From positions 1,211,001 through 1,275,000 of the forward strand of contig NZ_CP027806.1 of assembly GCF_003353065.1 (NCBI RefSeq): a DNA stretch of 64,000 nucleotides, read 5' to 3'. How positions within the stretch are numbered: position 1 is the first letter of the stretch; every line of letters starts with the position of its first letter. A program made the translations under genes and the position numbers. Under the pieces are notes generated by a model. That model was not told the origin of the DNA and did no database searches. It saw only the letters and a program-made list of their open reading frames with translations. Of the stretch, positions 12,323-24,430 are shown piece after piece. The stretch is from Cyclonatronum proteinivorum (GTDB lineage: Bacteria > Bacteroidota > Rhodothermia > Balneolales > Cyclonatronaceae).

Positions 12323-12425
12323 CGCCTAACATCAAAAAGCAAGGACCTATGAGACCGATTTGGGAGGTGTGGAACCAGCACGAAAGACCGTGATGCTCTC
12401 GGAGTTCCCCCTAAAAAAACAAAGG
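12323..12425 (-). repeat. dispersed ~100-bp repeat, copy A
   Basis: Read on the minus strand it goes from CTTTGTTTTTTTAGGGGG through GAGCATCACGGTCTTTCGTG, a GGTTCCACAC box and TCCCAAATCGGTCTCAT to CCTTGCTTTTTGATG. It is nearly identical over its whole length to copy C (18714-18815) in the opposite orientation, and related to copies B and D. It lies immediately before the OB-fold gene. Confidence 0.85.
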
Positions 12426-14962: not shown

Positions 14963-15380
14963 GTGTCGCTGTGCCGGAACTCCGACAGCATGTGCAGCAG
15001 CCGGAATCATGCTGCCCTGCCATTTCAGGTGCCCGTTTTTTTGGGTGAATCCCGTGAGCATCACGGTCTTTCGTGACAGCCCGAAAGCCCCCAAACCTAC
15101 GGCTGAGTCCCTTGCTTTGGGATGCGATGCGGCAGCGGGGTTGGCGCGCTGCAGGTCCGGATTTCCCGTGCCCATGTTGCGAGCTGAGAAGTGTTCGACA
15201 TCGGCGATCCGGATATCCATCCCAGCGCATTCGTCGATAATGCTGACGGTGTTTCCCAAAAAATAACAGGAGTTCGGGTGAGAAGTGGAGTCGGAGAAGA
15301 ATGCCGGATGCTATGGGGCATTATGGAGCTTGTCAAACCTGCGGAAGAAGCAACTGTTACGACTCAGTAGGGATGTTAGG
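14963..15380. other. intergenic region with a degenerate dispersed repeat
   Basis: Over 400 bases between the sqr terminator and the toxin gene end. Positions 15034-15130 are copy B of the dispersed repeat. The rest shows no gene; open frames here have no domain. A short second fragment, TTTCCCAAAAAATAAC near 15252, resembles the A/C-rich end of the repeat. Confidence 0.5.
15034..15130 (+). repeat. dispersed ~100-bp repeat, copy B (diverged)
   Basis: Begins GTTTTTTTGGGTGAATCCC and keeps the core GAGCATCACGGTCTTTCGTG exactly as in copies A and C, then drifts (a CCCCCAAACCTACGGCTGAG stretch) and ends with CCTTGCTTTGGGATG. The start and the core are the best kept parts. Confidence 0.7.
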
Positions 15381-17470: not shown

Positions 17471-18664
17471 ATGAAACCTCTCGCTTCCCGCACCGACGGA
17501 CTCCGCCAAAGCGGCATCCGGGCCGTGACACAGCTCGTTAATCAGTACAACGGCATCAACATGGGGCAGGGCATCTGCGACCTGCCCGCGCCCGACCCGG
17601 TGAAGCAGGGCGCCATCGACGCCATCACGGGCGATCAGTCCGTGTACAGCTAACACAGCGGGATCTCGGAGCTGCGGCAGCGCACCCTGCGCAAGTTTCA
17701 GACCTTCAACCGGATTCCGTGCAGCAGCGAAGAGGAAGTGATGATCACCAACGGCTCAACCGGAGCCTTTGTCGCGGCCTGCCTCACCCTGCTCGAACCC
17801 GGCGATGAAGTCATTCAGTTTGAGCCCTTCTACGGCTATCACGTGCAGCTTTTGAAAGTGCTCGGCTTCAAACCCAAATTTGTGCCGCTGCGTGGACGAA
17901 GCTGGGAGGTGGATTTCGACGCCCTGCGCGCCGCCATTGGTCCCCGCACCAAAGCCGTAGTCGTCACCAACCCCGGCAACCCGAACGGGAAGGTCTGGCA
18001 GGAAGCCGAACTCAAACAGCTCCTGCGCGTGCTGCAGGAGCACGACCTCTGGGCCTTCACCGACGAGGTGTACGAGTTCATGACCTACGACGGCAACCGG
18101 CATCTTTCCCTCGCTGCCCTGCCCAGTGGCTGGGAGCGGACCGTCACCATGTCGAGCTTCTCCAAAACCTACAACATGACCGGCTGGCGGCTCGGCAGCG
18201 CAGTCGCGCCCGCGCACATCATCGAAAAAATGGGGCTCATCAACGACCTCATCTACATTTGTCCGCCTACTCCCTTGCAGCATGGCCTCGCGCAGGCCTT
18301 CGATTTACCCGAAAGCTACTTCACGCAGCTCGCCGCCGATTACGACCGCAAACGCAGCCTCTTCTGCGAGGCCCTCAGCGAAGCCGGTTTCGACTTCGAT
18401 CCCCCGCAGGGCGCCTACTACGTGTTCGCGAGCTTCGAGCCGCTGCACCGCGCCGGCATCGCAGGCTTCGAAAACGACGAAGCCGCCTGCCACACCCTCA
18501 TCCGGGAAACCGGCATCGGCACGGTCCCAGGCCGCTCCTTCTTCTCCGACCCCGCGCAGGGCCGCTTCTGGCTCCGCTTCTGCTACGCCAAAGAATACCC
18601 GGTCCTCGAACGCGCCTGCACAGCCCTCCGAAACTTCGGCCAGCGTTGCCGCCTCAAAAGCTGA
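17471..18664 (+). pseudogene. class I/II aminotransferase interrupted by one in-frame TAA
   Basis: Read through, this would be a 397-residue PLP enzyme of the kynurenine/methionine aminotransferase type: INMGQGICDLPAPDPV at the start, then MITNGSTGAFVAACLTLLEPGDEV, NPGNPNGKVW and SSFSKTYNMTGWRLGS with the PLP lysine at codon 232, then FWLRFCYAKE near the end. Codon 61 (17651-17653) is TAA, where relatives continue with a Y-S-x-x-G stretch; the next residues, HSGISELRQRTL, keep the same frame and good conservation. One base change (for example TAC to TAA) explains it. Everything else is undamaged, so this is a very recent mutation, a sequencing error, or, less likely, readthrough. A restart at the ATG at 17738 would lose about 89 residues including substrate-binding parts. 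Confidence 0.85.
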
Positions 18665-18713: not shown

Positions 18714-18815
18714 CTTTGTTTTTTTGGGGGGAAACTCCTCGAGCATCACGGTCTTTCGTGCTGGTTCCACACTTCCCAAATCGGTCTCATAGCGCCTTGC
18801 TTTTAGATGTTGGCG
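18714..18815 (+). repeat. dispersed ~100-bp repeat, copy C
   Basis: CTTTGTTTTTTTGGGGGG, GAAACTCC, GAGCATCACGGTCTTTCGTG, a GGTTCCACAC box, TCCCAAATCGGTCTCAT, then CCTTGCTTTTAGATG. It matches copy A almost base for base but lies in the opposite orientation. It follows the aminotransferase pseudogene and precedes the tandem palindrome array. Confidence 0.85.
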
Positions 18816-18892
18816 TTTCGGGGCGGATATTCGAAAGCTGTACCCTGAATCAAACTCCGCGAGGTTGCAATTCTGAAGGAATTAGTAAAGAA

Positions 18893-19149
18893 CCCGTCAT
18901 CCCGGAAACGCCCACAGCGAAACAAAAAACCACCCCAAAAACAGCCGGCGTTATCCGGAATCTGCCAACTTCGCCCTGCGACCATGTGTGCAGTTCCCCC
19001 GCCAAACGCTGTGCCGGACTTTGCGGAACCGGCATCACAACCCGGATATTGCATCGCGGCAATTCGCGCCTGGCAGATCCCGGATAATGCTGCGCGAGGT
19101 TTCGTGCAGGTTGAAAAGCCCTGTGCCGCAGCATTTCCGGGATGACGGG
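18893..19149. repeat. nested-palindrome unit 1
   Basis: Outer arms at 18893-18908 and 19134-19149 are perfect complements. The inner arms are slightly decayed: TTATCCGGAATCTGCCAA on the left and CTGGCAGATCCCGGATAA on the right. It is the oldest-looking unit in its middle part. Confidence 0.85.
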
Positions 19150-19179
19150 GTGGATTTGACCAGTAAATTCCACAAAGAA

Positions 19180-19438
19180 CCCGTCATCCCGGAAACGCCC
19201 ACAGCGAAACAAAAAACCACCCCAAAAACAGCCGGCGTTATCCGGGATCTGCCAACTTCGGCCTGCGACCATGTGTGCAGTCCCCCCCCCCAAAACGCTG
19301 TGCCGGACTTTGCGGAACCGGCATCGCAGGTCTGCACCAGCATCGCGGCAAGTCCGGCTTGGCAGATCCCGGATAATGCTGCGCGACGTTTCATGCAGGT
19401 TGATAAGCCTTGTGCCGCAGCATTTCCGGGATGACGGG
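19180..19438. repeat. nested-palindrome unit 2
   Basis: Both arm pairs are perfect: outer at 19180-19195 and 19423-19438 (16 bases), inner at 19238-19255 and 19359-19376 (18 bases). The loop holds a run of ten C and a short GCCGG/CCGGC inverted pair. Confidence 0.88.
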
Positions 19439-19474
19439 GTTTGGGGGATTAGACCAGTAAATTCCACAAAGAAA

Positions 19475-19727
19475 CCGTCATCCCGGAAACGCCCACACGG
19501 AAACAAATAGTCGCCAACAAAAGCCAGCCGGCGTTATCCGGGATCTACCAACTTCGGCCTGTGACCATGTGTGCAGTCCCCCCCCAAACTCTGTGCCGGA
19601 CTTTGTGGAACGAGCATGCAGGTCTGCACAAGCATCGCGGCAGTTCCTGCTTGGCAGATCCCGGATAATGCTGCATGAGTTTTCATACAGGTAAACTACT
19701 TCGTGCCACAGCATTTCCGGGATGACG
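19475..19727. repeat. nested-palindrome unit 3
   Basis: The outer arms have lost two bases of symmetry (CCGTCATCCCGGAAA at 19475-19489; TTTCCGGGATGACG at 19714-19727) and the inner left arm has one change (CTACCAA). It has more substitutions than unit 2 along its length. Confidence 0.85.
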
Positions 19728-19829
19728 CGTTGGGGGTTGAATATGACGAAATCCACATAAAACGGCTCCGATCATAAAAAATCTGCGCTCCATTTCCGAA
19801 GCTTCTCCAGCTGCCGCCTCATGCCCAAC

Positions 19830-21212
19830 TCACCTCAACGGTGTCAATTCCTCCGTGTACGGCAAAAAGATAAAGGCATTATACCGCGCAACCATGTCGC
19901 TGTTTACGTAGTTCTGCGCTGCGTCATTAGCCGGGTTGTAGACTACGCCGATGGCGCGGTGCGGTACCGGACTGCCGAAAACTTCCCGCGCGGCATCGGT
20001 GCGCAGGGGGAACCAAACCGCGCCCAGGTCCAGGCTGTAGAGGCCGGCTTCGAGGCTGCCGGATCGGGCTTCGGGCATTTCCACAATCTGCATCGGACCT
20101 TCCCACTCGAAGCCCACATTTACGCGGCCGGAGAAGGTGCCGAAGCCGAGGGCGAATACGGCATCATCCCCGAAAGCGGTGCGTGTGAGCTGTCCGATGT
20201 TGTGCATGCCCGCACTGGCCATGTCCGTCGCGCGGGCATCTCCGATATGCGTGTTGTGCGCCCAGGCGATACCGCGGGCTTCCTCCCCGTAGAAGTCAAG
20301 CAGGCGGGCGAAGGTCTGCTTAAAATTGGCGGCCCGCTCATTCCAGGATTCCGGTCCCTGAAACAGCATCCCGCGCAGGTGTAAATCGGCCTGACGAAAA
20401 ACAAAGGCGTGCTGCCGCAGGTTGAACCATTCTTCCTGCGTGAAATCATCGGGTTGCGGGTTGGCCTCGAGAAGTTCGGTGAGCTCGAGGATGTCGCGTC
20501 CGCAGTGCTCGCCGGTGCGGGCAACATGCTGCAAATAAGCGCGGTTATCCCCTCTGAAGCGATTGATACACTGCGTGGAAACGAGCAAGGCTGTGCGAAG
20601 GTCGCCTTCAAAGTGGTCGGCTTGTGCACGAAGCACCCGCACGGACTCCGGCCAGCCGTACACATCCATCCCGTAAAAACCTACTTTTTGAGCATCCTCC
20701 GGAAGCGCCGCATTCCACGCGCGCAGCCACTCTACCAACTCAAGCGTCTCCTGATTGTTCCACATCCAGCCCGGCCAGCGCGTGAAATGTGCGAGGGCTT
20801 CCCGGGCGGAGGCGGGTGCGCCGGGCAGCTGTTTTACGTATTTGTTGACCTGCCAAGCCGCATCCCAGTCGCCTTCCACTACTACAAAATTATAGCCGTG
20901 CGCTTCAATCAGAATTTTGCTCAGGGCCGCCCTAAGCCGGTAATACTCCGATGTGCCGTGCGTCGATTCGCCGAGCAGCACCGCCCGGTGACCCGCGGCC
21001 ATGGCTGCAATTTCCGGCAGACTTTCCTCCGAAAAACTCCGAAACAGCGGGTGTTCATTCTCATGCTGTGCTTCCGTCGCTGCTAATCCGGTCTCAGAAG
21101 CATCAAGCTGTAAGGGCAGCGTGAGCATCCACACAATTAGGAGCGACAAGAGTGAAGCGGCAGTCTGTGTAAGTCCGGATCCGGACGTATCATCTTGAAA
21201 AGAATAGGTCAT
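19830..21212 (-). CDS. erythromycin-esterase-family protein, exported
   Basis: 460 residues. A hydrophobic N-terminal segment (about 18-36, SLLSLLIVWMLTLPLQL) acts as signal peptide or anchor. The catalytic framework of the family is present: HRAVLLGESTHGTSEYYRLRA with the conserved Glu and His, FVVVEGDWDAAWQVNKYV, KVGFYGMDVYGW, and GIAWAHNTHIGDARATDM with the second His pair. Family members linearise macrolides, but most environmental relatives have other, unknown substrates. Export suggests a cell-envelope role. It is alone on the minus strand, next to the repeat array. Confidence 0.82.
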   Translation of the reverse strand: MTYSFQDDTSGSGLTQTAASLLSLLIVWMLTLPLQLDASETGLAATEAQHENEHPLFRSFSEESLPEIAAMAAGHRAVLLGESTHGTSEYYRLRAALSKILIEAHGYNFVVVEGDWDAAWQVNKYVKQLPGAPASAREALAHFTRWPGWMWNNQETLELVEWLRAWNAALPEDAQKVGFYGMDVYGWPESVRVLRAQADHFEGDLRTALLVSTQCINRFRGDNRAYLQHVARTGEHCGRDILELTELLEANPQPDDFTQEEWFNLRQHAFVFRQADLHLRGMLFQGPESWNERAANFKQTFARLLDFYGEEARGIAWAHNTHIGDARATDMASAGMHNIGQLTRTAFGDDAVFALGFGTFSGRVNVGFEWEGPMQIVEMPEARSGSLEAGLYSLDLGAVWFPLRTDAAREVFGSPVPHRAIGVVYNPANDAAQNYVNSDMVARYNAFIFLPYTEELTPLR

Positions 21213-24330: not shown

Positions 24331-24430
24331 CGCCTGCACCCAAAAAGCAAGGAACACGACACCGATTTGGGATGTCAGGAACCAGCATTGTCTCCAGTGA
24401 TGTGCACGGGGTTTCCCCCAAAAAAATACC
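24331..24430 (-). repeat. dispersed ~100-bp repeat, copy D (diverged)
   Basis: Read on the minus strand: ATTTTTTTGGGGGAAACCCC, a CATCACTGGAGACAATGCTGG variant of the core, GTTCCTGACATCCCAAATCGGTGTCG, and CCTTGCTTTTTGGGTG. It fills most of the gap between the DUF433 gene and rlpA and lies 30 bases past the rlpA stop. Confidence 0.75.

Follow-up and report, generated by a model that had tools for sequence, protein, structure and literature searches.

Four-armed CGTC palindrome dimers dispersed in a bacterial genome and a candidate GIY-YIG endonuclease partner

The three tandem palindromic units in the 64-kb window (the whole stretch of DNA analysed) belong to a genome-wide family, for which the present study established a fold backed by covariation, a CGTC architecture, intergenic placement, an array-free syntenic site in one congener and a subfamily-specific association with GIY-YIG genes in two large taxonomic samples. 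We propose, with evenly divided confidence, that these units are non-autonomous intergenic CGTC-REP dimers that spread via a small GIY-YIG endonuclease. CGTC REPs, among them dRS3, RPE and their relatives, occur widely in bacterial intergenic DNA, and the pairing of GIY-YIG genes with CGTC palindromes, which recurs in many bacteria, provides a first testable candidate for their spreading agent.

Architecture and fold of the units

Direct reading and a repeat search both recovered the three tandem units with nested inverted repeats reported in a preliminary description of this DNA (Table 1), and the periods of 287 and 295 given there agree with start-to-start distances of 287 and 294-296. The outer 16-mer (CCCGTCATCCCGGAAA/TTTCCGGGATGACGGG), described as perfect, is indeed so in units 1 and 2, but only its inner 14 bp pair in unit 3 (ACCGTC.../...GACGCG), whereas the inner 18-mer (TTATCCGGGATCTGCCAA/TTGGCAGATCCCGGATAA) pairs throughout in unit 2, as described, and is mismatched in places in units 1 and 3. 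With 0-1 mismatch, the outer arm matched the window six times, always inside the three-unit array; with up to 3 mismatches, 15 matches were found against 1.95 expected, those outside the array being weak. In addition, a CGTC-palindrome detector run on the window returned exactly six palindromes, corresponding to two hairpins in each of the three units. Open reading frames of 80-218 aa cross the units.

Table 1. Coordinates of the three units, their hairpins and the neighbouring genes (window positions)
Feature	Coordinates	Strand	Remarks
Unit 1	18893..19149	+	257 bp; 91% identity vs unit 2
Unit 1 hairpin 1	18895..18968	+	CGTC tag, ATCCCGGA stem + AACGCC/GGCGTT extension, TCCGGAAT, CTGCCAA tail
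Unit 1 hairpin 2, inverted partner	19071..19147	-	TGGCAG, ATCCCGGA stem + AATGCTGC/GCAGCATT extension, TCCGGGAT, GACG tag
Unit 2, reference copy	19180..19438	+	259 bp
Unit 2 hairpin 1	19182..19255	+	
Unit 2 inter-hairpin spacer	19256..19358	+	103 nt; CTGCCAA/TTGGCAG closes spacer in cloverleaf
Unit 2 hairpin 2	19359..19436	-	
Unit 3	19474..19729	+	256 bp; 85% identity vs unit 2
Unit 3 hairpin 1	19476..19551	+	
Unit 3 hairpin 2	19651..19727	-	
Upstream neighbour, putative aminotransferase-like gene (sequence reading)	17738..18664	+	convergent with next gene
Downstream neighbour, putative erythromycin-esterase-like gene (sequence reading)	19830..21212	-	convergent; present in 5/5 congeners

A further complementarity links the 5' outer arm with the 5' inner arm (ATCCCGGA/TCCGGGAT), enabling each half-unit to form a separate hairpin, and two folds compete because the 5' outer arm pairs with both the 5' inner and the 3' outer arms. 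One is a cloverleaf consisting of outer stem, hairpin 1, middle stem and hairpin 2, with no unpaired base at the junction, and the other is the nested fold. Across 41 units, the cloverleaf had 94.6% of cells paired, a covariation of 0.107 versus 0.053 when shuffled (0/500) and changes on both sides at 8 pairs, compared with a covariation of 0.064 versus 0.051 and both-side changes at 3 pairs for the nested fold. The large double hairpin originally suggested was right in being structure-forming, but the covariation speaks for a cloverleaf with four arms, two of them local hairpins. Several of the changes lie in stems that exist only in the local hairpins: 10 units have GC for CG in hairpin 1, 6 units differ at three adjacent pairs of hairpin 2 and 2 units have TA for GC in the hairpin 2 core. 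The covarying pairs may reflect few mutational events.

Genomic distribution and kinship with CGTC REPs

A BLAST search with one unit as query gave 240 matches in the 4.29-Mb genome, and the 14-base outer arm with up to one mismatch had 51 forward and 55 reverse occurrences, while its reversed control gave 0 matches genome-wide. Mapping with four motifs resolved about 50 related units at about 33 intergenic sites, in arrays of 1-6. The possibility of a local duplication, found only here and lacking covariation, is thereby removed, as the roughly 50 copies carry compensatory changes; conversely, the characterization as a non-autonomous mobile or structural, non-coding element is supported by this dispersal, by the intergenic positions and by the capacity to form structure. 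A rough codon-usage gene caller predicted no gene overlapping the family sites (33/33), consistent with the earlier statement that the array contains none. Motif spacing was near-constant (outer-inner 54-63, inner-inner mostly 115-126, inner-outer 59-64), as was spacer length across the family; among deviating copies, some were interrupted and a few truncated. In most copies, the CGTC tags mark the limits of conservation on either side. At one locus (L078, 1403746-1405263), three units of a single array have a common, 160-nt longer centre, apparently an insertion into the spacer that preceded growth of the array.

At the site syntenic with the window array, one congener (G005) has kept the gene order and has no unit, its intergenic region measuring 363 bp versus 1165. 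The same congener carries at least one complete unit at another locus, in which the stems are retained and the letters changed. Arms were few or absent in five congeners, with almost none outside G005, these counts being lower bounds because draft assemblies collapse repeats. The units resemble MITEs in their terminal inverted repeats; with regard to the target-site duplication and parental transposase of such elements, the candidate parents considered were Y1 and GIY-YIG genes, and the search for target-site duplications proposed in the preliminary description yielded none that could be defined, nor was a clean insertion junction or target duplication found at the syntenic site in G005 or at a flank repeat within the genome. 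This flank repeat of about 100 bp (e.g., at G000:C1:2128371 and 2113487) lies directly before the unit at 8 places and stands unit-less at about 11, where it leads into another CGTC-like palindrome (GATCCTTCGACTCCGC...). Since it is common to many single units, the units may have spread within larger mosaics. A viral origin was rejected, as a scan of viral contigs for the unit pattern gave no match.

When 85,000 genomes were scanned for the pattern of the unit, short palindromes (GTCATCCCGGAAA...TTATCCGGGATCT) emerged in many unrelated phyla, which led to the CGTC REP superfamily, a group including Neisseria dRS3 and Rickettsia RPE-4 and RPE-6 (Di Nocera et al. 2013, PMC3733652). Its members have a CGTC, TGTC or CCTC tag, an 8-9 bp stem starting with AT, a loop of 4-5 nt (with exceptions recorded) and a short unpaired tail, mostly CCA; they mostly form head-to-head dimers and are apparently without a dedicated transposase (PMC3733652). 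The present units likewise carry the CGTC tag at one end and an 8-bp stem with AT at positions 1-2 (ATCCCGGA/TCCGGGAT), form head-to-head dimers with the tags outside, have a conserved spacer and an intergenic location and show no association with Y1 transposases. On the tail side, CT[AG]CCA follows the stem but may itself be base-paired, as part of the middle stem. By contrast, the loop is about 50 nt long, with 41-49 nt between GGAAA and TTATCC, and holds a second, covarying stem. Since every point fits apart from loop length and, less clearly, the tail, the units were filed as a variant outside CGTC-1 to CGTC-4; they are a large-loop, head-to-head-dimer variant of the CGTC REP superfamily. 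They further differ from CGTC REPs in the four-armed fold of the dimer, in the lining up of as many as 6 dimers in tandem and in a GIY-YIG gene between units. In Neisseria, NIME arrays consist of mutually different spacer sequences bounded by dRS3, i.e., CGTC palindromes, whereas here the whole dimer, spacer included, is one family.

The units also recall REPINs and GTAG REPs with RAYT (TnpA-REP) in having two inverted palindromes each and, in many copies, a GTAG-like tetramer adjoining the stem on the tail side, but they flank no RAYT/Y1 gene and their outer tag is CGTC. None of the five Y1 transposase genes in the genome is flanked by units and four have other repeats around them, and a RAYT/REPIN system was therefore rejected. 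Elsewhere, 30 Y1 loci in other CGTC-bearing genomes lacked CGTC palindromes, and Y1 control loci had one nearby in 1/35 cases and on both sides in 0/35. Those four Y1 genes (L096, L097, L098 and L099) each lie amid their own distinct repeat family, e.g., GCCCTGAAGGGGCGGCATATC around L096.

Association with a GIY-YIG nuclease

In the array at 606.8-610.3 kb, a 103-aa GIY-YIG gene is located between units and has been duplicated along with the unit, the second copy containing a stop codon. The genome has four GIY-YIG matches, of which only these two are free-standing, the others lying within long reading frames (622 and 684 aa); the intact free-standing gene is present in one array only. Homologues were sampled regardless of their flanks, as the best 29 from 247 genomes of the phylum and 20 more. 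A CGTC palindrome was located within 350 bp in 34 of the 49 loci and on both sides in 26, with no palindrome detected in 15, as against 0/20 at control sites 17 kb off on the same contigs (Fisher, 4e-8 for any side and 1.4e-5 for both sides). The pattern was replicated in another class, to which Thioalkalivibrio (G043) belongs, with 24/29 loci having a palindrome and 17/29 having one on both sides, whereas a weakly related free-standing GIY-YIG subfamily of this class, possibly UPF0213-like, had palindromes at 0/20 (2e-9 and 9e-6). Because the association is specific to one GIY-YIG subfamily and was replicated, the question of what moves CGTC REPs becomes directly testable.

Moreover, the excess of CGTC palindromes scaled with GIY-YIG copy number across the 247 genomes (rho 0.37; within-family permutation p 0.0005), and their abundance did so within family f4 (rho 0.78); the abundance proxy counts short-loop palindromes only, so that the window genome scores low. 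Among REP-rich genomes, the GIY-YIG gene was found in 32/36 and absent in 4/36. Protein and stem similarity were weakly correlated (Mantel 0.21; between families 0.10, p 0.058). One genome of about 2 Mb (G471) had 16 GIY-YIG matches, including many short fragments, which suggests recent expansion and decay of these copies.

The residues Y, Y, G, R, H, E and N, which are of catalytic type, are invariant among the GIY-YIG homologues. At weak E-values, the predicted structure (pLDDT 90) is similar to those of UPF0213, Slx1 and the nuclease domain of UvrC; Slx1 and UPF0213 share the GIY-YIG fold with the partner protein and are distant in sequence. Slx1 acts on branched DNA according to the titles of PDB entries 6seh and 7cq4. 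By analogy, a nuclease that cuts junctions would be well matched to the cloverleaf unit, which with its four arms would be an obvious candidate substrate for an enzyme with an Slx1-like fold. In the literature searched, which took in few subscription journals, no paper joined GIY-YIG with extragenic palindromes or dRS3, an absence that is accordingly provisional.

We infer that the GIY-YIG nuclease binds, cuts and mobilizes the units, and the following course can be envisaged. A unit present as single-stranded DNA or extruded as a cruciform could adopt a four-armed shape made up of outer stem, hairpin 1, middle stem and hairpin 2; the small endonuclease, array-encoded in this genome (606.8-608.2 kb), would recognize and nick the CGTC hairpin or the junction; units could then reach further intergenic locations when the cut DNA is repaired or copied, and local arrays might grow by slippage or by unequal exchange of adjacent units. 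Weighing against this proposal are the 15 loci with no palindrome detected, the four REP-rich genomes lacking the gene, the mixed orientations of the flanking palindromes, the weak correlation of protein and stem similarity, the confinement of the intact gene to one array, the failure to find a clean junction or target duplication and the possible spread of units within larger mosaics. A wider proposal is offered tentatively and at somewhat less than even confidence, namely that a distinct free-standing GIY-YIG subfamily is the missing mobilizer of CGTC REPs across phyla, acting on hairpins or cruciforms as RAYTs act on GTAG REPs, and that the window units are its large-loop dimers.

Alternatively, the GIY-YIG gene could be a passenger or homing endonuclease landing in CGTC palindromes that multiply by other means (a transposase in trans, recombination or slippage), which appears less likely but has several observations in its favour. 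The nearest palindromes at the 26 two-sided loci had mixed orientations (9 outward-tag, 8 inward-tag and 9 direct), a mixture that agrees with genes inserting as guests into clusters of REPs no less than with a defined element; an IS110 element also targets the outer arm of the unit, twice; and GIY-YIG genes with internal stops also lie within rRNA sequence, in the manner of rRNA introns, in one genome (L172 and L188; G054, Patescibacteria/Parcubacteria). However, a passenger predicts the scaling of REP and GIY-YIG copies less directly, though more sites could attract more passengers, and the gene was duplicated jointly with the unit in the present genome.

A structured non-coding RNA or transcript-end element with a host function, such as protection of mRNA 3' ends, is improbable. 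Such an RNA would be in keeping with the strong fold of unit 2, which as single-stranded DNA has z = -6.0 (DNA parameters) and whose minimum-energy structure mixes both pairings because the 8-bp cores can branch-migrate, as well as with neighbouring genes that are convergent at 14 sites, tandem at 15 and divergent at only 3 (background 30/122/28). However, a similar convergent and tandem placement is typical of REPs in general (PMC3733652), and presence is patchy, with congeners other than G005 being nearly devoid of units. Furthermore, wobble cells were equally often G.T (40) and A.C (43), so that neither strand is favoured, as expected of a DNA element; this balance in the alignment points to the unit probably acting as DNA rather than RNA. 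A known RNA family was also rejected, as an Rfam search of the window at the gathering score matched only tRNAs and none of the units. Equally doubtful is a satellite that lacks a dedicated enzyme and spreads solely through slippage, recombination and gene conversion, since conserved linkers between units within arrays and other mosaic repeats in the flanks are in line with it but the roughly 33 dispersed sites, the sharp ends at the CGTC tag and the mostly missing common longer flank are not.

IS110 element and other repeats near the units

An IS110-family element was found twice at the same outer-arm position (L072:3810-5038, at 2639.3-2640.5 kb, and L076:7239-8463, at 609 kb). Its upstream region contains two stem-loops (z only -1.6). 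By eye, CGTCAT in stem-loop 1 agrees with the left side of the target CCCGTCATCCCGGA and GTCCGGGATGA in the same stem-loop with the complement of its right side, and ACAGTTCAT in stem-loop 2 matches the right end of the element. The stem-loop 1 matches are apparently those expected of bridge-RNA target guides, which would here be directed at the CGTC arm.

A second repeat in the window, of about 93 nt, was located at 18714-18806 (+), 12335-12424 (-), 24343-24426 (-) and, in part, 15036-15075 (+), with at least 24 matches in the genome; the first of these copies lies just upstream of the array. In addition, large intergenic arrays with periods of about 470-630 nt and the palindrome CCCCTCTCGAGAGGGGTGGC occur mixed with CGTC units (L071:2179-3700, L095:5870-8292 and L072:3380-3510).
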